Of a stretch of 32,081 nucleotides of DNA, positions 6,873 to 31,590 are shown piece after piece. Location: IMG/VR virus record IMGVR_UViG_3300025652_000294, positions 1 through 32,081 of that record, one strand, 5' to 3'. Made by a program: the position numbers and the translations under genes. The notes beneath the pieces are model-generated. The model was not told the DNA's origin. It saw only the letters and a list, made by a program, of their open reading frames with translations, and made no database searches. This stretch comes from a virus. Positions within the stretch are counted from its first letter, which is position 1. The number at the start of each line of letters is the position of its first letter.

Positions 6873-7592
6873 ATGACAAAAACCAAAAAGAAAGTTGCTT
6901 TTTGTGTTCCAACGGTAAAAAAACCATATCAAGTTTGTCTTAACAGTATAAAAGATTCAATACCCTCGATAGAGGAAGCTGGCTGGGATCATGTAATGGT
7001 TTCAGAGATAGGCAACCCATATATATCAGCAGCTAGGTCATATATGTTACACAAGGCATTAAAAGCTGATGCTGATGTAATTGTATTTATAGATCACGAT
7101 TTATCTTGGGATTCCAAGGACTTACTAAAACTTATTGAGACAGAGGGCGAGGTTGTAGCTGGAACTTACAGATTTAAAAGAAAAGATGTGGAGTATATGG
7201 GCAGTCCTTTGCCTGGTATAGATAAAAGACCCATAGTTCGAGAAGATGGGTGCGTTTCTGCTTTTTGTATTCCGGCTGGGTTCTTAAAGATAACTCGGAA
7301 AGCGGTTAACATATTTATAGAGAAGTATCCTGAATTATGTTACGGAGACAGATGGCAGCCTAAAGTGGATTTATTTAATCATGGTGTTCATAACCATGTA
7401 TGGTTTGGCGAGGACTACGCTTTTTCTAGGAACTGGCTTGCCACGGGGAATCCAATTTGGATTATACCTGACATAAATATTAATCATCATACTGATACTG
7501 AAGAATTTAAAGGTAACTATCATCAGTATTTATTACAACAACCTGGAGGAAGCGAGTCAGACAATCCAGAGCCACCAAGGGAACTTAAATGA
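6873..7592 (+). CDS. GT-A type glycosyltransferase-like protein
   Basis: The 239-residue protein begins KKVAFCVPTVKKPYQVCL, a nucleotide-sugar-binding beta strand as in GT-A enzymes. It continues with NPYISAARSYMLHKAL and VIVFIDHDLSWD, whose D74-H75-D76 fits the DxD metal motif, and ends with FGEDYAFSR, a typical acceptor-side acidic motif. Such enzymes move a sugar from a nucleotide donor to a protein, lipid or base. There is no membrane segment. It lies between the decoration-like gene and the neck genes, so it might glycosylate virion proteins or modified DNA; the substrate is unknown. The start has no strong RBS. It overlaps the next gene by four bases (ATGA). Confidence 0.75.
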   Translation: MTKTKKKVAFCVPTVKKPYQVCLNSIKDSIPSIEEAGWDHVMVSEIGNPYISAARSYMLHKALKADADVIVFIDHDLSWDSKDLLKLIETEGEVVAGTYRFKRKDVEYMGSPLPGIDKRPIVREDGCVSAFCIPAGFLKITRKAVNIFIEKYPELCYGDRWQPKVDLFNHGVHNHVWFGEDYAFSRNWLATGNPIWIIPDININHHTDTEEFKGNYHQYLLQQPGGSESDNPEPPRELK

Positions 7593-17132: not shown

Positions 17133-19096
17133 TGGATTACTCTAAATTCTCAGATGCTGATTTAGATGCCTTGTCAAAAGAGGACTATGACTCAATGTCA
17201 ACAGAAGGATTGCAGATAGTTGTAGCTGCCGAAGAAAATAAGGCTTTTGAGGCAAAATCTCAAGAAGAACAAACACCTTCAGGAGAATGGGATAGCTCTC
17301 AAGGTGCTTCAGCTAGTTGGGGTGATCCAGAACAAGAATGGGAAACCAATCAGAGAAAGGGTGCAGGTTGGGGAACTAGGGCAATGAGCGAGGTTAAGGA
17401 AACTGCCGCAGGAGTTGCTGACTATCCCTTGGCTGCTGCTAGAATGGCGGGTGAAGCATCAGATGAAGTGTTTGGAACTGATATTGCTCAATATCCAGAG
17501 GCGGCTCAAGAATATGTTGACGAAGGTGTTAGAGAAGCAAGAACAAAGGCGGGGAAAGACCCTGATGAAACTAGCGGTTACAGAGAATCTGCAAAGTTCG
17601 TTATGTCATTAACTCCGTTAGGTAGATTAATGCGAATAAAGGGCGCGATAACAGGAGTTACAGCAGCAGCGGGTTATGCTGGAACGGTTGGAGCTTTAAA
17701 TTACAAACCAGCCGAAGGTGAGAATTATAACTTCGGTCAGGTGGCAGAAAGATTTGGAGAGGATGCTTTAATTGGTGGAGCTTTTGGAGTTGCCGCTCCT
17801 TTGATTGGTGCTGGAGTTAAAGCTGGGAGTTCTGTTTACCAAGGCGGCAAAAGAATTATTACTGGGGCAAGTAATCCGGGAATGACTCTTAATAAAGCAG
17901 CAGGTAAAGACAAGCAGCAGATAATTGACGAATTAAGAACAACGGAAAGTAAGGTTCCTGGTACTAAGTTAACTCCTGCGGAAGCAACTACAGCAGCTCG
18001 TAGTCCTGAATTTGCTGCGTTAGAAAAATCTGTGATAAGCAAACGAGATCCTAAAGACTTCGTAGTTCTAGCAGAAAAACAAGAAGAAGCTGCCAGAGAT
18101 GTATTAAAAGGTATAAAAGAAACTGGCGGCGGGAAAGAAGCGGCTATGAAGGCAAGAAAGAAAGCGGCAGAGCCTCATTACGCAGCAGCAGCTAATGACA
18201 CTACAACCATTGTAAATACAACTCCAGTTGTTAGAGAACTAAAAGCATTAATAGCTGTAAATTCTAAAAATAAAGAAGTAGCAGAACCATTGCGTCAGAT
18301 ATTAAAGGAAGTTAAAAGTTCAAAGAATAGGTTAGGTAGAGAGACAAATTTAACCGTTCAAAAGATGAAGTCAATGTCAGAAGGAATAAGATCGAAAATA
18401 AAAGAAAAGGTTGATGGAGTTCCAAAGTATGACCAAGTTACGTTAATGAAGGTTAAAAAACTACTAGACAAACAAATTGAGGCTAAATCACCATCTTACA
18501 GAAAAGCAAGGAGAATATTTAAAGAGAAATCAGTTGCAGTTAATCAAGCAGCGTTAGGTGATGACCTTCTTAAAGCGTATAACTCTCCTTTAGAGGGCGG
18601 AAAGTCAAGAAAGACTATATTTGCTGGTGTTATTAATAAATACAAAACAACATTAAATCCTAAGACAAAGAAGCCGATGCTTAGTTCGCTAGATAAGAAA
18701 CAGGAAGAAGGTCTTGCTGGCGTAATGGATTTATTAAGCAGACAGGTAAAGGCGGCTGAATTAGCTAAAGCTGGAACAGCAAGCGTTAAAACAAGAACAC
18801 AGCCGTTCCAAGTTCCTTCTACTGGTATTTTTTCTCCAATACTTTCATTTGCGAGGGGTACTTTTAATAGAGCAGTTGGCGGAGCTAGTGAGAAGGGTCT
18901 GCAACGTCTAGGAGAGATAATGGCGAAGGCTGATAATAAAACAATAGCTGATTTAATGGAGAACGCTAGTCCTGCTCAAATTGAAGAGATGGCTGCATTT
19001 TTAAGAACCAGCTTAAAACCTATACTACAATCTTATGGGGCAGCAGTCGGAGTTTCGGCAAAAGAGCTTGCCCTAAATACACCAGAGGATAAATAA
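17132..19096 (+). CDS. Large internal virion / DNA-ejection protein
   Basis: The 654-residue protein has an acidic N-terminus (SDADLDALSKEDYDSM). A glycine/alanine-rich, hydrophobic stretch follows around 170-235 (GAITGVTAAAGYAGTVGA; LIGGAFGVAAPLIGAGV) that could insert in a membrane. A long charged helical part (about 270-600) comes after. Size, composition and place (third in the ejection cluster, like P22 gp16) suggest a component of the trans-envelope channel for DNA. No lytic transglycosylase motif is seen. Joined to neighbours by TAATG. The role is inferred. Confidence 0.65.
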   Translation: MDYSKFSDADLDALSKEDYDSMSTEGLQIVVAAEENKAFEAKSQEEQTPSGEWDSSQGASASWGDPEQEWETNQRKGAGWGTRAMSEVKETAAGVADYPLAAARMAGEASDEVFGTDIAQYPEAAQEYVDEGVREARTKAGKDPDETSGYRESAKFVMSLTPLGRLMRIKGAITGVTAAAGYAGTVGALNYKPAEGENYNFGQVAERFGEDALIGGAFGVAAPLIGAGVKAGSSVYQGGKRIITGASNPGMTLNKAAGKDKQQIIDELRTTESKVPGTKLTPAEATTAARSPEFAALEKSVISKRDPKDFVVLAEKQEEAARDVLKGIKETGGGKEAAMKARKKAAEPHYAAAANDTTTIVNTTPVVRELKALIAVNSKNKEVAEPLRQILKEVKSSKNRLGRETNLTVQKMKSMSEGIRSKIKEKVDGVPKYDQVTLMKVKKLLDKQIEAKSPSYRKARRIFKEKSVAVNQAALGDDLLKAYNSPLEGGKSRKTIFAGVINKYKTTLNPKTKKPMLSSLDKKQEEGLAGVMDLLSRQVKAAELAKAGTASVKTRTQPFQVPSTGIFSPILSFARGTFNRAVGGASEKGLQRLGEIMAKADNKTIADLMENASPAQIEEMAAFLRTSLKPILQSYGAAVGVSAKELALNTPEDK

Positions 19097-20541
19097 TGAC
19101 AGTATTTATAGCACCATCACCAAGACAGCAGTTTTTTGATTCCAATGGCGATCCGCTGGTAGGTGGAAAGCTATTTACTTATAAAGCAGGTACTACTACT
19201 AAGGTTGCTACTTATACCACTTCAGTAGGAGATACAGCTAACTCTAATCCTATTATATTAAATGCTTCTGGCAGAACTCCCTATGGAGTATGGTTAACAG
19301 ACGGACAGTCTTATAAGTTTACTCTTGCTCCGGCTACGGACAATGATCCGCCTAGCAGCGCAATCTTTGTTTCGGATAATGTGGACGGTGTAAATGATTT
19401 TGAAGCAGCAGGAGCTTCTCAATGGATAGCTTCTGGTTTTGACCCAACTTTTATCTCCACTACACAATTCTCTGTAACAGGAAATAGAACAGCTACGCTA
19501 CATGTAGGCAGAAGGTTAGAGCTAACCGTATCAGCAGGAAAGGTCTACGGATACATATCTGCTTCTACTTTTAGTTCTGTAACTACTGTTACATTAGTTA
19601 TGGATGCGGGAGATGCTTTAGACTCTGGACTGACCGAGTTTAATTACGGCATATTATCCGCTACAAGCCCTTCAATACCTGGGTTAGCTGATGCTGACTG
19701 GCAAAACCTTGGGATAGCAACGCTTGGTGCGGATAACACGTTTGGTGCAGACAACACGCATACCGGAAAGATTATCATGTCCGGCAAAGCTATTGATGAA
19801 GCTGTTCATAGCGAAGCTGCTCATGCGACCACTTCGGATATATGGGCGGGTGGCAATACTTGCTTATTAACGGGAGGTGTTGTTACCTTCACGGATATTG
19901 CAGATGCGCCACAAGCCGGAGCAGTTCGATTTGTGGTCGCTAATGCCGCTCATATCATAACTGACGGGTCGAATTTGGAGGTTGATGGGAATCAAAATTA
20001 TACTTGCGCGGCAGGAGACTTGCTACGTTTTGAAGCTAAAACAACTTCCACTTTCCGTGTAAGTGTTATGTCTCACGGAGACTCCGCTATTGTGGGTAAA
20101 ATAATACAGGTAGTTAATACTCAAACTGGCGCATCAGCTACTGGCACAACTGCAATTCCTTACGATGACACTATTCCTCAAAAGACTGAGGGTGATGAGT
20201 ATATGACTCTAGCCATTACACCAACCAAGTCTACCAGTAAATTAAGAATAGATGTTGTCGTTTACGGAGCGCAAGCTGCTAATGATAGATTAGGAACTGC
20301 TTTATTTCAAGATACTACTGCGGATGCTATAGCGGCAACCGCCACTCTTGTGGATACTAATTGGGATTCTGTTTCTACCTGTAGGCATACAATGACTTCA
20401 GCAACAACTTCCGAGACCACTTTTAAGGTTAGGTGTGGCTCGCAAACAGGAGGCACGTTTACCTTTAATGGCTCTGGCTCTGTTAGAAAACTAGGCGGTG
20501 TTGGAGCCTCCTCAATCACAATTACGGAGTATGTAGCATGA
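19096..20541 (+). CDS. Tail fibre or tailspike-like protein with head-binding-type N-terminus
   Basis: The 481-residue protein has a first 105 residues (FIAPSPRQQFFDSNGDPLVG, GKLFTYKAGTTTKVATY, NPIILNASGRTPYGVWL) that are the well-known virion-attachment domain of podovirus tailspikes and fibres. The remainder is beta-rich, Thr/Ser/Ala-rich and without obvious hydrolase motifs. It contains a collar-like VFTFTDIADAPQAGAV-like segment and a C-terminal jelly-roll-like stretch (TQTGASATGTTAIPYDDTIP onward). It would be the second receptor-binding protein besides the 905-residue fibre. It overlaps the next gene by four bases (ATGA). Confidence 0.82.
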   Translation: MTVFIAPSPRQQFFDSNGDPLVGGKLFTYKAGTTTKVATYTTSVGDTANSNPIILNASGRTPYGVWLTDGQSYKFTLAPATDNDPPSSAIFVSDNVDGVNDFEAAGASQWIASGFDPTFISTTQFSVTGNRTATLHVGRRLELTVSAGKVYGYISASTFSSVTTVTLVMDAGDALDSGLTEFNYGILSATSPSIPGLADADWQNLGIATLGADNTFGADNTHTGKIIMSGKAIDEAVHSEAAHATTSDIWAGGNTCLLTGGVVTFTDIADAPQAGAVRFVVANAAHIITDGSNLEVDGNQNYTCAAGDLLRFEAKTTSTFRVSVMSHGDSAIVGKIIQVVNTQTGASATGTTAIPYDDTIPQKTEGDEYMTLAITPTKSTSKLRIDVVVYGAQAANDRLGTALFQDTTADAIAATATLVDTNWDSVSTCRHTMTSATTSETTFKVRCGSQTGGTFTFNGSGSVRKLGGVGASSITITEYVA

Positions 20542-20846
20542 ATATAACTCAATCAATATTGCATTTAATCCCAGACGCAAAGTTCATGTGCTGGGAGAAT
20601 GATTATAATCGCATTACATGGAATGATTCTAATACAAAATCTAAACCATCATTGGTCGAGCTAGAGGCTGCATGGGTTGCTGTCGAAGCAAATGAAAAAG
20701 CCATGGCATACAAAGAGCAACGGGTAGCGGCTTATCCTCCTATGACTGATTATCTTGACGGAATTGTAAAAGCTGATAACGTACAAGTTCAAAAGTACAT
20801 TGATGATTGCTTGGCAGTAAAGGCAAAGTATCCCAAGGGTGCGTAA
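20538..20846 (+). CDS. Small fibre-associated protein (chaperone-like)
   Basis: The 102-residue protein has a C-terminal half, YPPMTDYLDGIVKADNVQVQ followed by CLAVKAKYPKG, that matches a motif common in small proteins encoded right after phage tail fibres, where they are usually annotated as tail-fibre assembly or hypothetical proteins. The N-terminal half (FMCWENDYNRITWND) is less typical. It starts at an ATGA junction with the tailspike-like gene and overlaps the thioesterase gene by eight bases. Confidence 0.65.
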   Translation: MNITQSILHLIPDAKFMCWENDYNRITWNDSNTKSKPSLVELEAAWVAVEANEKAMAYKEQRVAAYPPMTDYLDGIVKADNVQVQKYIDDCLAVKAKYPKGA

Positions 20847-21261
20847 ACAAAGATTATTAACTCCCTTTCATACTACCTTGCCAAAGGATTTAGACCCAAC
20901 GTTAAGGATAGTTACTATGCCGACAGATACCAACCATAGCGGCGATGTATTTGGTGGTTGGATAATGTCTCAGGTTGATATAGCTGGCAGTCTCTTGGCA
21001 ATTCGGCGTACCGGAGGCAGAGTAGTTACAGTTGCCGTAGATAATTTCGTATTTAGACACCCCGTCTTTGTTGGTGACGTTGTTAGCTTCTATACCAAGA
21101 TTACTAAAATAGGGCGAACTTCAATTACTATAGATGTCTCCGTGTATGCACAGCGAGGAGCGCGAGAAGGACATGAAGAAATCTGTATTAAAGTAACTGA
21201 AGCGATGTTGACTTATGTGGCAGTAGATGACAAAGGAAAACCGGAGGCTATAAATGAGTAA
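20839..21261 (+). CDS. YciA-type acyl-CoA thioesterase (hotdog fold)
   Basis: The 140-residue protein contains VTMPTDTNHSGDVFGGWIMS followed by QVDIAGS. This is the YciA/acyl-CoA hydrolase signature: N32, D36 and F38-G-G, with D47 at the place of the catalytic acid. The remaining family landmarks follow in order: RVVTVAVDNFVFRHPVFVGD, SFYTKITKIGRTSITIDV and LTYVAVDDKGKP. YciA-type enzymes hydrolyse acyl-CoA to free acid and CoA in the cytoplasm. All core residues appear intact at the usual length. The GTG start overlaps the preceding gene by eight bases, and the next gene overlaps its end, so it is embedded in the late transcript. An unusual phage cargo gene. Confidence 0.85.
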   Translation: MRKQRLLTPFHTTLPKDLDPTLRIVTMPTDTNHSGDVFGGWIMSQVDIAGSLLAIRRTGGRVVTVAVDNFVFRHPVFVGDVVSFYTKITKIGRTSITIDVSVYAQRGAREGHEEICIKVTEAMLTYVAVDDKGKPEAINE

Positions 21262-21523
21262 AGAGCTAATAGATCAGTCAGCGCACTTCGCAAGTAATAT
21301 GTTATTTACGATATTGGTATTTGTACCAGTTCTAAACTGTCTGGTAGTTTTACTTTGGGCTTACACTAGGGAATACTACCAACATAAAGATGAGTCAAAA
21401 TCCTTCTGGGGAAACATTCCAGACTTTAATAGAGACTTATTTTGGAGTTCAATTGGAATTGTTGTAGGATTGCTCATAAGTGGGGCTGTATGGGCGTTTC
21501 TACTGATTGGGTTAAGGGGCTAG
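21254..21523 (+). CDS. Small membrane protein with two transmembrane segments
   Basis: The 89-residue protein has hydrophobic segments at about 16-38 (FTILVFVPVLNCLVVLLWAY) and 66-87 (SSIGIVVGLLISGAVWAFLL), separated by a charged loop (TREYYQHKDESKS). Two short membrane helices at the head of the lysis region could mean a holin, but the small charged loop protein type is also found elsewhere in phages. It overlaps the thioesterase gene by eight bases. The family was not recognised. Confidence 0.65.
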   Translation: MSKELIDQSAHFASNMLFTILVFVPVLNCLVVLLWAYTREYYQHKDESKSFWGNIPDFNRDLFWSSIGIVVGLLISGAVWAFLLIGLRG

Positions 21524-21815: not shown

Positions 21816-22091
21816 ATGTGGCAAAAAGTTAAGAACTTTATAAGCGAAAGGTTGTCGGAAGCATCAACTTTAAGAGCGATCACTTTGCTTACTGGTTTGG
21901 CAGGGTGGACTCTATCGCCAGAACATGGTGAGATGATCGCAACTCTAGTTGTCTTTGGTTTGGGTTTATTTGGTATCATGCCAGATAAGAAAAAAACAGA
22001 AGGTGAAATTCTTGTAGAAGCTGAAGCGGTAAAAAAAGCAAAACTAGCTGAAGCTAAAGAATATGTGAGGATCGCAGAAGAAGAGGAGTGA
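21816..22091 (+). CDS. Putative holin
   Basis: The 91-residue protein has a short basic/amphipathic N-terminus (MWQKVKNFISERL), two closely spaced hydrophobic stretches (about 20-32 and 41-56: ATLVVFGLGLFGIMP) and a long charged C-terminal helix (KKTEGEILVEAEAVKKAKL). Small phage holins often have this layout, and the gene stands immediately before the DUF5675 and spanin genes. It has the strong RBS AAGGAG. Holins permeabilise the inner membrane at the end of infection. The call rests on topology and location. Confidence 0.65.
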   Translation: MWQKVKNFISERLSEASTLRAITLLTGLAGWTLSPEHGEMIATLVVFGLGLFGIMPDKKKTEGEILVEAEAVKKAKLAEAKEYVRIAEEEE

Positions 22092-22097
22092 CTCAAA

Positions 22098-22490
22098 ATG
22101 GAGTTCAAACTTCAAAGAGTTTATGTCGGAGAGGAAGGGGCTTTTGGAGTCTTGTCAAAAAATGATGAGCCTCCCTTCGCTGTCACGCTGGAAAGAACCT
22201 TCAAGCCGTCAAATGAAGTGGTAGTTCCATACGGCACACATAAGTGTATCAGAACGATGTTTAATAAGGGTGGGTATCCAACCTATGAGATACTGCTGCC
22301 AGAGACTCAACACACTCTAGTAAAATTTCACAAAGGTAATTTAGAGGAACACTCTTTAGGGTGTGTACTAATAGGCGAATCCTTCCATCAGTTCGGTGAT
22401 ATAGCTGGTATTGGCAATAGTAAAGGTGGCTTCAACGAGTTTATGGAACACACCTGCTCGGCTGAAGAGCTTATGTTGCTAGTGTGCTAA
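22098..22490 (+). CDS. DUF5675-like protein in the endolysin position
   Basis: The 130-residue protein has the sequential features FAVTLERTF, VVPYGTHKCIRTMF, TYEILLP and LVKFHKGNLEEHSLGCVLIG. They match the DUF5675 family (an early ...TLE/IE, a PxGxY/H strand, then HxxN..GC). H78 and the S-L-G-C of 86-89 resemble the His...(S/T)-H-G-C active site of YkuD-type L,D-transpeptidases, but the His of SHGC is Leu here. Between a holin-like gene and Rz/Rz1, this is where a phage keeps its endolysin, and no other endolysin is seen in the window. The RBS is GAGGAG. A TAATG junction joins it to Rz. Confidence 0.75.
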   Translation: MEFKLQRVYVGEEGAFGVLSKNDEPPFAVTLERTFKPSNEVVVPYGTHKCIRTMFNKGGYPTYEILLPETQHTLVKFHKGNLEEHSLGCVLIGESFHQFGDIAGIGNSKGGFNEFMEHTCSAEELMLLVC

Positions 22491-23029
22491 TGGTTCAAGC
22501 TGCTATCGTACTGGTTGTTGCTTCCCTATTAACTGGCGCAGGTTTTATAACTGGCAAGAAGTGGGAGCGTTCCGTTTGGCAGCCTGTATATGGGCATTTA
22601 GCATCGCAACTGACTAAACTTCAATCAGACTTAAATATTAAGACAGCGGAATCTTTAGGTGCTTCTTCTACTAGGCTTGCAGAGATAACTGTATACGGGA
22701 AAGTTTCGGAGGTTAAAAATGAATTTGCACAAAAAGAGATTGACCGCAGGGTTGATGCTTACCTTAACAATCTCTCAGATAACGGGCTGCTCCTTTCTTC
22801 CAAAGAAAGAGATTCAGGTAAAAACATTAGCTCCAATCCTTTGTCCAGTTCCGCCAGAAAGTCTTACAAGCGAAGTGGGCAAGATGGACTCTTTATCGGT
22901 CTGGACAGACTTGAAAGAGGAGTTATCGAAAGATTAGTTAGAAGTAGGGACAAGGCTTTGGCCAGGAATCTTCAGTGCAAAGAATATCTCGATGAGCTAG
23001 AGATTAAGATGAAGACTCTGCGCGATTAA
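22490..23029 (+). CDS. Rz-like inner-membrane spanin
   Basis: The 179-residue product starts at the ATG of a TAATG junction (a GTG at 22484 is an alternative). One N-terminal membrane segment (AAIVLVVASLLTGAGFITG) precedes a long charged helical periplasmic domain. Rz-type spanins reach across the periplasm to join Rz1 in the outer membrane and fuse the two membranes after the wall has been cut. An Rz1 ORF with a lipobox lies inside it in the +1 frame, which is decisive for the assignment. Its 3' end overlaps the convergent minus-strand ORF by 26 bases. Confidence 0.82.
   Translation: MVQAAIVLVVASLLTGAGFITGKKWERSVWQPVYGHLASQLTKLQSDLNIKTAESLGASSTRLAEITVYGKVSEVKNEFAQKEIDRRVDAYLNNLSDNGLLLSSKERDSGKNISSNPLSSSARKSYKRSGQDGLFIGLDRLERGVIERLVRSRDKALARNLQCKEYLDELEIKMKTLRD
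22719..22937 (+). CDS. Rz1-like outer-membrane spanin lipoprotein, embedded in Rz
   Basis: This 72-residue product is read in the +1 frame wholly inside the Rz gene. It begins MNLHKKRLTAG, has a hydrophobic core, and a lipobox ITGC puts the lipidated Cys at residue 24, so the mature chain would be about 49 residues, normal for Rz1. A short proline-containing segment (CPVPPE) follows, as in other Rz1 proteins. An independent RBS GGAGG lies six bases before the ATG. Rz and Rz1 together complete lysis of Gram-negative cells. Confidence 0.88.
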   Translation: MNLHKKRLTAGLMLTLTISQITGCSFLPKKEIQVKTLAPILCPVPPESLTSEVGKMDSLSVWTDLKEELSKD

Positions 23030-23416: not shown

Positions 23417-23620
23417 TCATACTCCTAGTTTGCGCTCTAATTTCTTATCTCTGTCCGGCAAGCCATGCCAAGCAATACAACCATGCTTGTGTCCGTTCCA
23501 GTCGCCTAAAATTGCAATCTTACCCTGAGTCAGCAGCAACATTTTCTTACTGGCATTTTCTGGTGGTCTATCGTAAATCCAGTAGTTGCCTGTTTCTACA
23601 GATGCGTCTGGATTGCTCAT
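23417..23620 (-). CDS. Small protein, function unknown
   Basis: The 67-residue protein has the core GKIAILGDWNGHKHGCIAWH followed by GLPDRDKKLER. This pattern of aromatic, His and Gly residues is, by recollection, seen in other phage small proteins, but no role is assigned. It has the RBS GAGGA and lies two bases after the previous gene of the operon. Confidence 0.65.
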   Translation of the reverse strand: MSNPDASVETGNYWIYDRPPENASKKMLLLTQGKIAILGDWNGHKHGCIAWHGLPDRDKKLERKLGV

Positions 23621-28028: not shown

Positions 28029-28130
28029 TTACTCGTCATTTAAACGCTCTATGATGCGCCTAGACAGCAAGTAAAGTGCAACGGGTATACCAACCCCTGC
28101 TAAAATAATTAAATAATCGTATAAACTCAT
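28029..28130 (-). CDS. 33-residue single-pass membrane peptide
   Basis: The start overlaps the methyltransferase stop as ATGA. The product begins MSLYDYLIILAGVGIPVAL and ends SRRIIERLNDE: one hydrophobic segment with a basic-acidic cytoplasmic-like tail. It is the last gene before the bidirectional terminator. The junction and composition make a real gene likely; the role is unknown. Confidence 0.55.
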   Translation of the reverse strand: MSLYDYLIILAGVGIPVALYLLSRRIIERLNDE

Positions 28131-28738
28131 TCTGCCCCCTTTAAACTTTTCATAATTTGTCTGCCGATTTCAGGATGCACCGCGTTTCTCAATACTTGGG
28201 CTGGGCAATGGTTGCCTTCATAATAAATGCTTCCCTCGTAAGCGATTCCAAGCCATTCCTTGAGGGCTTCCGCGCCCCTTAAAGTTGTTTGATTAATAAA
28301 TCCTTTTGGACTCGGTACATCTTCGGCTTGAAATTCAAAATTAGACCAGAACAAATGTCTGCCCACTTTTTTTGAAGGTGCGATTAACGGCTTATAATAA
28401 GGCACAACATTTTCCACAATCCACTTGCCCTTAAAATCAGCTTGTAACAGTAAAATTTCCTCGTATAGTTTTAAATCAATAAATCTTGGTTTCCGATTTT
28501 TGCCTGATCGGATCATTCTACTATGGGACTGACAAGGTGGGCTTGACCAGATAAAATCAAAATCCTGGAAATTTTCTAGCAGATATTGGTGAGCATCCGT
28601 CACTATTACGGTATCTTGTGGATACTGTTTTTTGTAGGCGTTGGCTATCTTGTCGGTATACTCTACCGCCGTAACCGCGCAATCCTGCCAATACATACGG
28701 TTGCCCCCAAGTCCTGCATATAAATTTAATATTTTCAT
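28127..28738 (-). CDS. Compact C5-cytosine DNA methyltransferase
   Basis: The 203-residue protein shows motif I (LNLYAGLGGNR), motif II (VTAVEY), motif IV with the catalytic Cys (IWSSPPCQSHS, C69) and motif VI (WIVENV, 106-111). The C-terminal RNAVHPEIGRQI serves as motif X. The enzyme would methylate cytosine at C5 in DNA using S-adenosylmethionine, protecting phage DNA from restriction or marking it. At 203 residues it is much shorter than typical C5 enzymes (over 300), so the target-recognition domain is minimal. It has the RBS AAAGGA. Confidence 0.85.
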   Translation of the reverse strand: MKILNLYAGLGGNRMYWQDCAVTAVEYTDKIANAYKKQYPQDTVIVTDAHQYLLENFQDFDFIWSSPPCQSHSRMIRSGKNRKPRFIDLKLYEEILLLQADFKGKWIVENVVPYYKPLIAPSKKVGRHLFWSNFEFQAEDVPSPKGFINQTTLRGAEALKEWLGIAYEGSIYYEGNHCPAQVLRNAVHPEIGRQIMKSLKGAE

Positions 28739-30702: not shown

Positions 30703-31590
30703 TCATGCTGCGGTTGCGGTGGCTTCCTTATCTTCATTGGCTACCTCAACCCCTTGGATAAAATCAACGGCTTTCTGTGCTTGTCCTGCAGCGGTAAAGA
30801 TTGCCTTTTTATCGCCTTTTAAGACTTTGAGCCATGACTCAATATAGGCAGCGTGTTGCAGTTTGCCTTCAATGCCTAAATCTGCACAAAGGAACGCAGC
30901 TCCTAACTCTGCACAGAGTTCCTCTCTCGCATAGGCAGTATCTCCGAAACGTCCCACAAGGTTGCGATCACAGCGTGTCTTGTGGCTTGTCCAATGGGTT
31001 AGCTCATGCAATGCCGTTGCGTAATAGTCCTCAGGTGTTTTAAAAACATCCTGCACAGGTAGTTGGATATGGTCATGGCTAGGTGAGTAATAGGCAGAGT
31101 CACCGCCGTGTCGAATGTCCGCAGGTTTTAAGCACTCATCAGCTTTGGCGTGTCTTGTTTCTACTGGGGCGTACCATTCCTTCTCCTCTGGTAGTTCGAT
31201 GCCCTCGCAGTCTTCAACGGAAAATACGGTGTAACTCTTTAGCAATGGGATCACCATAAACTCACCCTTTTTGGTTTTGTCTTCAATTTTCAAAGGTGAG
31301 TAGAATGCTATAGCATGACCCTTTGCGCCCTTCTTGACGTTACCGCCTTTCAACTTGGCTTGACGATAGGTTAGGAAGTAGTTGGATTCTGAAACGCCCC
31401 ACAAGATCAGGCGGTTGATGCCACGGTATGCTTTACCAGTTATCAGGTTTTTCGGTAGCAATGATTCACCCCTATAGCCCCCGTCACCTTTCCAAGGCTT
31501 GACCCATGGCACACAGCCAGATTCTAGCTGCTCAATAATGCGATTAGTAACGTCTTGCATCAGGTCTTTTTTTACATAATTTTTTTTCAT
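30703..31590 (-). CDS. ArdC-like antirestriction protein
   Basis: The 295-residue protein has an N-terminal part, QDVTNRIIEQLESGCVPWVK, then GKAYRGINRLILW and FLTYRQAKLKGGNVKKGAKG. This is the single-stranded DNA-binding domain of ArdC/TraC-like proteins. The C-terminal half is a zincin-like metallopeptidase with HELTH (H195, E196, H199) and a downstream acidic helix (AREELCAELGAAFL, about 221-234). Such proteins are thought to shield incoming DNA from host restriction. An early position in the operon fits this. The RBS GAGGTGA precedes the ATG. Confidence 0.88.
   Translation of the reverse strand: MKKNYVKKDLMQDVTNRIIEQLESGCVPWVKPWKGDGGYRGESLLPKNLITGKAYRGINRLILWGVSESNYFLTYRQAKLKGGNVKKGAKGHAIAFYSPLKIEDKTKKGEFMVIPLLKSYTVFSVEDCEGIELPEEKEWYAPVETRHAKADECLKPADIRHGGDSAYYSPSHDHIQLPVQDVFKTPEDYYATALHELTHWTSHKTRCDRNLVGRFGDTAYAREELCAELGAAFLCADLGIEGKLQHAAYIESWLKVLKGDKKAIFTAAGQAQKAVDFIQGVEVANEDKEATATAA

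Follow-up and report, generated by a model that had tools for sequence, protein, structure and literature searches.

YciA enzymes are hexamers, i.e. trimers of dimers, with the CoA site at the dimer interface. Among the members with known structures, YciA of H. influenzae (HI0827; PDB entries 1YLI and 3BJK) and Cj0915 (3D6L) have a common fold, the motif DTN-x-x-G-x-x-FGGW and a catalytic aspartate. According to the accessible portions of the cited papers, the YciA proteins studied hydrolyze many acyl-CoAs (PMC10560148, PMC6469607), and D44 is the key catalytic residue of the H. influenzae enzyme (PMC10560148). On the viral side, an acyl-CoA thioesterase is mentioned for the E. coli Qin prophage in the available text of PMC6379469. 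For viruses of nitrifiers, host-derived MCO1, aminotransferase and oxidoreductase genes are described as auxiliary metabolic genes in the available text of PMC11849493, the viruses in question being those of archaeal ammonia oxidizers and of nitrite oxidizers. The word "thioesterase" does not occur in the main text of that paper, nor did a thioesterase of nitrifier phages appear in any title found in the open-licence literature.

The DNA analyzed here (the window) is the whole of the IMG/VR record IMGVR_UViG_3300025652_000294, 32,081 bases in length. It encodes a YciA-like protein that has this fold, motif and catalytic aspartate and is 44-47% identical to HI0827 and Cj0915 in structural alignments, but differs from both in scoring below the equivalog cut-off of the YciA family model, in being phage-borne and in having fiber and lysis genes as flanks. 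The gene is a host-derived phage auxiliary gene, of a kind already known and not unprecedented; what is added here is the donor lineage and a module common to distantly related phages. Viruses of bacterial ammonia oxidizers are poorly known, and a candidate virus group is offered for them here, open to testing by way of a single host-derived gene.

The thioesterase gene and its surroundings

The window is linear and has no direct terminal repeat, so the virus may continue past its ends. Its left two thirds form a single rightward run, with packaging, portal, scaffold, capsid and connector genes, then fiber-like genes and then a lysis-type cassette (Table 1). PHROGs matches were obtained for the terminase (phrog_38), portal (phrog_156), capsid (phrog_283) and head closure protein (phrog_578), and the relatives of the portal in the phage collection are P22-like portals. 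Between the capsid and connector genes, at 6873-7592 (+), lies an ORF matching phrog_1574 (function not named in PHROGs), which reads as glycosyltransferase-like from its sequence and has no Pfam match.

Table 1. Features around the thioesterase gene of the window
Feature	Position	Strand	Basis and remarks
Fiber-like ORF	19096..20541	+	PHROGs match; N-terminus similar to phrog_26190 (function not named in PHROGs)
102-aa ORF	20538..20846	+	phrog_9114 (function not named in PHROGs); C-terminal part conserved; overlaps yciA by 8 nt
YciA-like 4HBT acyl-CoA thioesterase, 140 aa, GTG start	20839..21261	+	ORF, Pfam, NCBIfam, alignment, fold model
89-aa ORF with REYYQ motif, putative membrane protein	21254..21523	+	Judged from hydrophobic segments; 8-nt overlap with yciA
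91-aa holin-like ORF	21816..22091	+	Hydrophobic pattern and position; no profile match
DUF5675 protein	22098..22490	+	Profile match and position, which is that expected of an endolysin
Rz-like (inner spanin-like) ORF	22484..23029	+	Read from sequence; no spanin profile match
Lipoprotein-like ORF	22719-22937	+	Sequence-based; lies within the Rz-like gene in a different frame, an arrangement like that of embedded Rz/Rz1 spanin pairs

A reading made earlier from the sequence alone (the sequence-only reading) had described an intact hotdog gene of YciA type that overlaps both neighbors and is situated between fiber genes and a lysis cassette. This description held in each respect: the ORF contains no internal stop, both overlaps were recovered, and the fiber genes are found on one side and the lysis-type cassette on the other. 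Against Pfam 4HBT (PF03061), the protein scores 66.6 bits with a cut-off of 20.6, which places it in the superfamily. The best named model is the NCBIfam YciA model NF007970 (E 3e-36, 124.2 bits), whose equivalog cut-off of 162 is not reached, and the protein is therefore named YciA-like. Seven further proteins scored with this model, i.e. three Nitrosomonadaceae orthologs, one from Herbaspirillum (L030) and the viral L002, L005 and L104, likewise stayed below the cut-off, all with 95.7-126 bits. Since this includes the Nitrosomonadaceae orthologs (116.8-126 bits, or 115.5-126 for all four with L030), the low score suggests a trait of the lineage and not decay. The protein is also matched over most of its length by phrog_18230 (E 1.8e-34; no named function in PHROGs), so virus-associated relatives are already catalogued.

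The active-site residues proposed from the sequence, N32, D36, F38-G39-G40 and D47, align with those of YciA. Together with T64 they are invariant in an alignment of nine rows; with 32 rows, D47, FGG and T64 are invariant and N32 and D36 nearly so. The position altered in PDB 3BJK (the "Asp44Ala mutant" of HI0827) corresponds to D47 in the alignment, i.e. an equivalent of the catalytic Asp44 is present. An AlphaFold2 model of the monomer (pLDDT 87.2, pTM 0.81) had 3D6L, 3BJK, 1YLI and 5DM5 as its best PDB matches, and the nine best, with TM (query) values of 0.80-0.85, are without exception YciA-type thioesterases, in agreement with a predicted hotdog fold. Judged from alignment and model, the gene probably encodes a functional acyl-CoA thioesterase, with acyl-CoA hydrolysis as its predicted activity.

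The DUF5675 protein, placed between the holin-like and Rz-like genes, has an invariant KFHKGN and, later on, S-x-G-C, motifs which we take to resemble those of L,D-transpeptidases. It might be an unrecognized lysis enzyme; its structure model, built from three sequences, is poor (pLDDT 47.3).

Origin in Nitrosomonadaceae

The genome scan gave at least 595 stretches and at least 533 relatives, the best 80 of which were kept. The top 19 of these 80 were assigned to Nitrosomonadaceae, Nitrosospira or Nitrosovibrio, except for one betaproteobacterial MAG, which groups with them. An 85-row tree united all five phage proteins in one clade (99/89, the bootstrap not fully settled) within Nitrosomonadaceae, beside an uncultured Nitrosomonadaceae MAG. 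In a tree of 29 rows, to which genomes G033 and G022 were added, the phages together with a low-GC donor lineage received 99/99 and the phage clade alone 90/90. The phage rows are thus nested in a cellular clade, in keeping with the cellular origin of an auxiliary metabolic gene. The sequence-only reading had proposed a phylogeny for finding the donor, and this phylogeny points to Nitrosomonadaceae, a family of ammonia-oxidizing bacteria; as judged from these trees, a donor in this family, nearest to the one low-GC lineage, is well supported. Alternative topologies with one phage placed among the hosts gave p-AU values of 0.065, 0.072 and 0.138, i.e. they were disfavored but not rejected. Taken with the 90/90 support of the phage clade, this makes a single capture, rather than several, likely but not proven.

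Within the family, the gene was found in 102 of 120 genomes, 101 of which have it in single copy; one match contains a stop codon, and those in G102 and G121 are partial. The host copies closest to the window protein are those of G033 (81%), G001 (81%) and G022 (79%), the range being 78-81% with locus L006 included; the assemblies of the three genomes are 1.0-1.5 Mb in size and perhaps incomplete. The GC content of the window is 0.407, compared to 0.415-0.422 in three stretches of the donor lineage and 0.467-0.561 in five other loci of the family. Stretches of the Nitrosomonadaceae G013, G024 and G036 also have 0.42-0.43, so GC indicates the low-GC members of the family and not the donor lineage alone.

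Four host loci were inspected, namely L006, L100 and L101 from the donor lineage and L103 from another genome of the family (G035). The first three have the gene order miaA-like, AMP-binding acyl-CoA ligase, yciA and copper nitrite reductase-like, with the ligase at L006 confirmed by Pfam and the other names read from sequence. In L103, an acyl-CoA dehydrogenase gene and then an acyl-CoA ligase gene, the latter read from sequence, come before yciA, and genes for an enoyl-CoA hydratase/3-hydroxyacyl-CoA dehydrogenase and a thiolase come after it. The placement beside an acyl-CoA ligase, in L103 within a beta-oxidation cluster, connects the captured gene with the turnover of fatty acyl-CoA. The chromosomal copies (L006, G033, G022) are the nearest relatives of the phage copies and fall in the same clade, but while the host gene is preceded by the ligase gene, the phage copies have an N-terminal stretch of their own and a GTG start that overlaps the upstream gene.

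Viral copies, cargo slot and host

Besides the window, four IMG/VR loci were found with the single protein as query and five with a profile, the scan being one that detects only loci sharing short conserved peptides. Four of them (L002-L005) are close copies, with 76-78% identity over the matched part and a residue difference of 22-25% from the window copy, and one is distant. Over the aligned part, the proteins of L002, L003 and L004 do not differ. All four close copies are intact; each lies after a fiber-side gene, begins with a GTG inside the upstream gene, and precedes a relative of the 89-aa REYYQ membrane-type ORF. A relative of the 102-aa ORF is found directly before yciA in L002-L004 and farther upstream in L005. 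In the window and in the four viral contigs, yciA has phage genes on both sides (the L004 contig ending one gene further), which places it in viral genomes and not in contaminating host DNA.

The expectation of the sequence-only reading that few phages carry this gene was borne out, with four to five loci in IMG/VR and, out of 50,697 INPHARED records, 7 matching the window protein and 16 the L005 protein. Five INPHARED neighborhoods were viewed, one of them from the MD-2021a, one from the Staphylococcus and one from the Moraxella records, a set outside the Listeria records, the other records under these three names and six rows of the L005 query. Three look like host DNA (mislabelled or flank-containing records), and the remaining two are jumbo phage XacN1 and an unannotated 635-kb uncultured phage; with three of five viewed neighborhoods resembling host DNA, a wide spread in isolated phages is not borne out. 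The Staphylococcus match adjoins an aminopeptidase fragment near an integrase end, and the Moraxella Mcat17 match falls outside attL. The one record viewed of "Acinetobacter phage MD-2021a" (L086, CAKLQH020000002.1) is a bacterial-chromosome-like contig with transhydrogenase, mnmC and yajQ. XacN1 (ORF409; 384,670 bp) and a viral contig of 428,320 bp (L104) also carry a hotdog acyl-CoA thioesterase. ORF409 is 28.9% identical to the L005 protein and L104 shows 44% identity, and both genes reside in very large genomes with different neighbors; these thioesterases are likely of separate origin.

All window ORFs of at least 50 aa were compared with the contigs of L002, L003 and L005 (G007, G008 and G009, respectively) at E 1e-4. 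Matches comprised yciA, the 89-aa membrane-type ORF, the small ORF before yciA (G009 excepted), repetitive fiber pieces and short ORFs elsewhere, and the terminase, portal and capsid of the window had no match in the three contigs at this threshold. By PHROGs, the capsids and the portals or connectors differ from those of the window: G008 matches phrog_1216 with its portal and phrog_1357 with its capsid, while the matches of G009 are phrog_332 for a head-tail adaptor, phrog_376 and phrog_394 for tail proteins, and phrog_979 for the terminase. Kinship at the profile level is seen in phrog_38, common to the terminases of the window and G008, in phrog_979, common to those of the window and G009, and in a weak match of the G008 portal to phrog_156 (E 1.8e-21). 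Three podovirus-type backbones, distant in sequence though not wholly unrelated at the profile level, thus carry the yciA module, as counted without L004, a fragment of 5.6 kb. Since the structural genes of the two further backbones resemble those of the window at the profile level at most, the module has been passed between phages. Contamination or assembly error was rejected, given the same arrangement on three phage backbones. Fiber pieces that the window has in common with G009 (a repetitive ORF with 73% identity across 318 aa) would fit a shared host range. Elsewhere in the window, a 67-aa ORF at 23417-23620 (-) is 95.5-96% identical in G009, which has another backbone, and in the L186 contig (81% in L187 and L188); a recent exchange of this gene would fit such identities.

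Selection was assessed by dN/dS, as suggested in the sequence-only reading, and proved to be purifying, with 0.14-0.21 among three phage copies and 0.10-0.21 between phage copies and the two nearest host copies (G033, L006), ratios that are rough because of the high dS (0.8-1.7). The unbroken frame, at the protein difference given above, makes the gene appear maintained.

The REYYQ membrane-type ORF is present in 33 IMG/VR loci. We surveyed the same-strand ORFs of at least 50 aa upstream of it in 31 of these, leaving out the yciA-bearing L004 and L200; two lacked upstream sequence, giving 29 readable slots. The set contains several nearly duplicate loci. The slot contained a cytidylyltransferase with a cupin and a small ORF (seven loci), a 2OG-Fe(II) oxygenase (six), a phage lysozyme (two) or yciA (two), and was empty beyond the fiber gene or a 105-109-aa ORF in the remaining 12. 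Cargo was identified by Pfam on one representative per type (e.g. PF13640 for the oxygenase and PF02348 for the cytidylyltransferase) and otherwise by sequence likeness; cargo loci include L186 3584-4135 (-), L215-L219, L191-L197 and L206-L207. The fiber-like ORF of the window has an N-terminus resembling that in L186 and L201, where the slot holds the oxygenase.

The sequence-only reading had also called for a survey of related phages for the same locus, and this gave a divided answer: the locus recurs in the four close-copy contigs, but none of 28 capsid relatives has a 4HBT gene. These 28 were taken from the best 80 and include fragments, 22 of the records being at least 26.9 kb. The nearest ones (L105-L108, 92-100% capsid identity) are fragments whose 6-16 kb do not suffice for a statement on the slot, and the longer ones have a capsid identity of at most 70% and may infect other hosts. 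The gene is therefore not a general trait of the phage type of the window.

From the donor clade, the GC content and the sharing of the module, we infer a nitrifier host that belongs to the donor lineage or stands close to it. A search of 125 Nitrosomonadaceae genomes for DNA matches revealed neither a CRISPR spacer nor a prophage link; apart from short or weak matches, it gave yciA itself and, in one assembly, a distant capsid gene. The array check, which covered the sole near-exact match (27 bases), found no repeat array around it. Portal relatives occur in 7 of the 399 genomes of the order, the best with 41% identity. The best tetranucleotide correlations of the window were 0.43 (a Gallionella locus, G098 and phage NF-1), with 0.33 for the best G001 stretch; such profiles, which lack a preference for the donor lineage, are not decisive for the host. 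The highest correlations of the other contigs were with G033 and G001 for G007 (0.48), a G001 stretch for G008 (0.51) and G013 for G009 (0.61).

Possible roles during infection

The best explanation in our judgment, to which we give about an even chance, is a functional nitrifier-derived thioesterase, selected as cargo in an exchangeable fiber/lysis slot and hydrolyzing host acyl-CoA late in infection. The gene would have been captured from a Nitrosomonadaceae ammonia oxidizer and kept by selection as exchangeable cargo between fiber and lysis genes, and its order among the genes suggests late expression along with the genes for virion structure and lysis. The enzyme would split host acyl-CoA into free acid and CoA, thereby opposing the acyl-CoA ligase encoded upstream of the host ortholog. 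The released CoA would go back into central metabolism, the re-activation of fatty acids would be stopped while membranes break down, and free fatty acids would rise shortly before lysis. Phage infection would in this way be linked to nitrifier acyl-CoA metabolism, and should the enzyme change membranes or free fatty acids, phage gene content would be tied to the loss of nitrification. The fiber/lysis cargo slot is, moreover, one whose contents are open to survey.

Infection of N. europaea by phage Nir1 is accompanied by a rise in free C16 fatty acids and 3-hydroxybutanoate and by disintegration of the intracytoplasmic membranes; the authors attribute the fatty acids to phospholipid hydrolysis (available text of PMC13356812). 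The compounds that rise are products that such an enzyme could yield. Phage NF-1, which is included in the INPHARED collection searched and to which Nir1 has 90.6% similarity (same source), had no thioesterase match with the window or L005 protein. With its relative Nir1 (genome outside the search) raising C16 acids, this effect can apparently arise without a phage thioesterase.

A link of the thioesterase to lysis, which the sequence-only reading had raised, is hypothesized from gene position only. One form of it is an interchangeable extra lysis function, in which the late enzyme would block re-activation by the ligase and C16 acids would dismantle the ammonia-oxidizing membranes before holin and spanins act. 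It would be traded among distantly related podoviruses of the same nitrifiers, hosts rich in intracytoplasmic membranes. We find this form distinctly doubtful.

Other readings were weighed against the favored one. The gene could be hitchhiking cargo, i.e. an active host enzyme caught by chance beside a fiber gene and spread by the exchange of fiber/lysis modules, with little benefit to the phage. The very different cargo, or none, in the 29 readable slots of the 31 loci would agree with this, as would the zero of 28 capsid relatives with a 4HBT gene and the finding in IMG/VR of only four close copies and one distant copy besides the window. Against it stand the intact active site and a dN/dS of 0.10-0.21 at 22-25% residue difference from the window copy, and the retention on three backbones, and we regard chance carriage as unlikely, if worth serious attention. 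The slot contents also show that genes at the fiber/lysis boundary need not serve lysis, and in this they favor a role in central metabolism, where the enzyme would act mainly on acetyl-CoA and other short acyl-CoAs and keep free CoA and acid flux at the disposal of virion production, without a part in lysis or membranes. E. coli YciA does use acetyl-CoA, acetoacetyl-CoA and 3-hydroxybutyryl-CoA (accessible part of PMC6469607). The host orthologs, on the other hand, adjoin an AMP-binding ligase, joined in L103 by beta-oxidation genes, a setting that indicates longer chains, and the feedback inhibition of H. influenzae YciA by CoA (accessible part of PMC10560148) would limit a net drain, so that a purely metabolic role on short chains seems rather improbable.

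The position of the gene between fiber and lysis genes, with both neighbors overlapped, might also be taken to mean that the hotdog protein is a part of the virion or of lysis timing, its catalysis being incidental. The conserved N32, D36, FGG and D47 speak against this, as does the lack of yciA in 27 of the 29 slots that could be read upstream of the REYYQ ORF (two yciA-bearing loci being outside the survey), and we consider such moonlighting highly improbable.

A defense role was dismissed, as PADLOC gave no match for the thioesterase; its 89-aa neighbor weakly matches a two-transmembrane effector model (E 0.0082). Two further minus-strand genes of the window were identified, namely a short C5 cytosine methylase-like ORF at 28127-28738 (-), which covers only positions 1-111 of the 324 in the profile, and, at 30703-31590 (-), an ArdC-type protein (ArdcN and MPTase-PolyVal domains) that is likely an anti-restriction factor.
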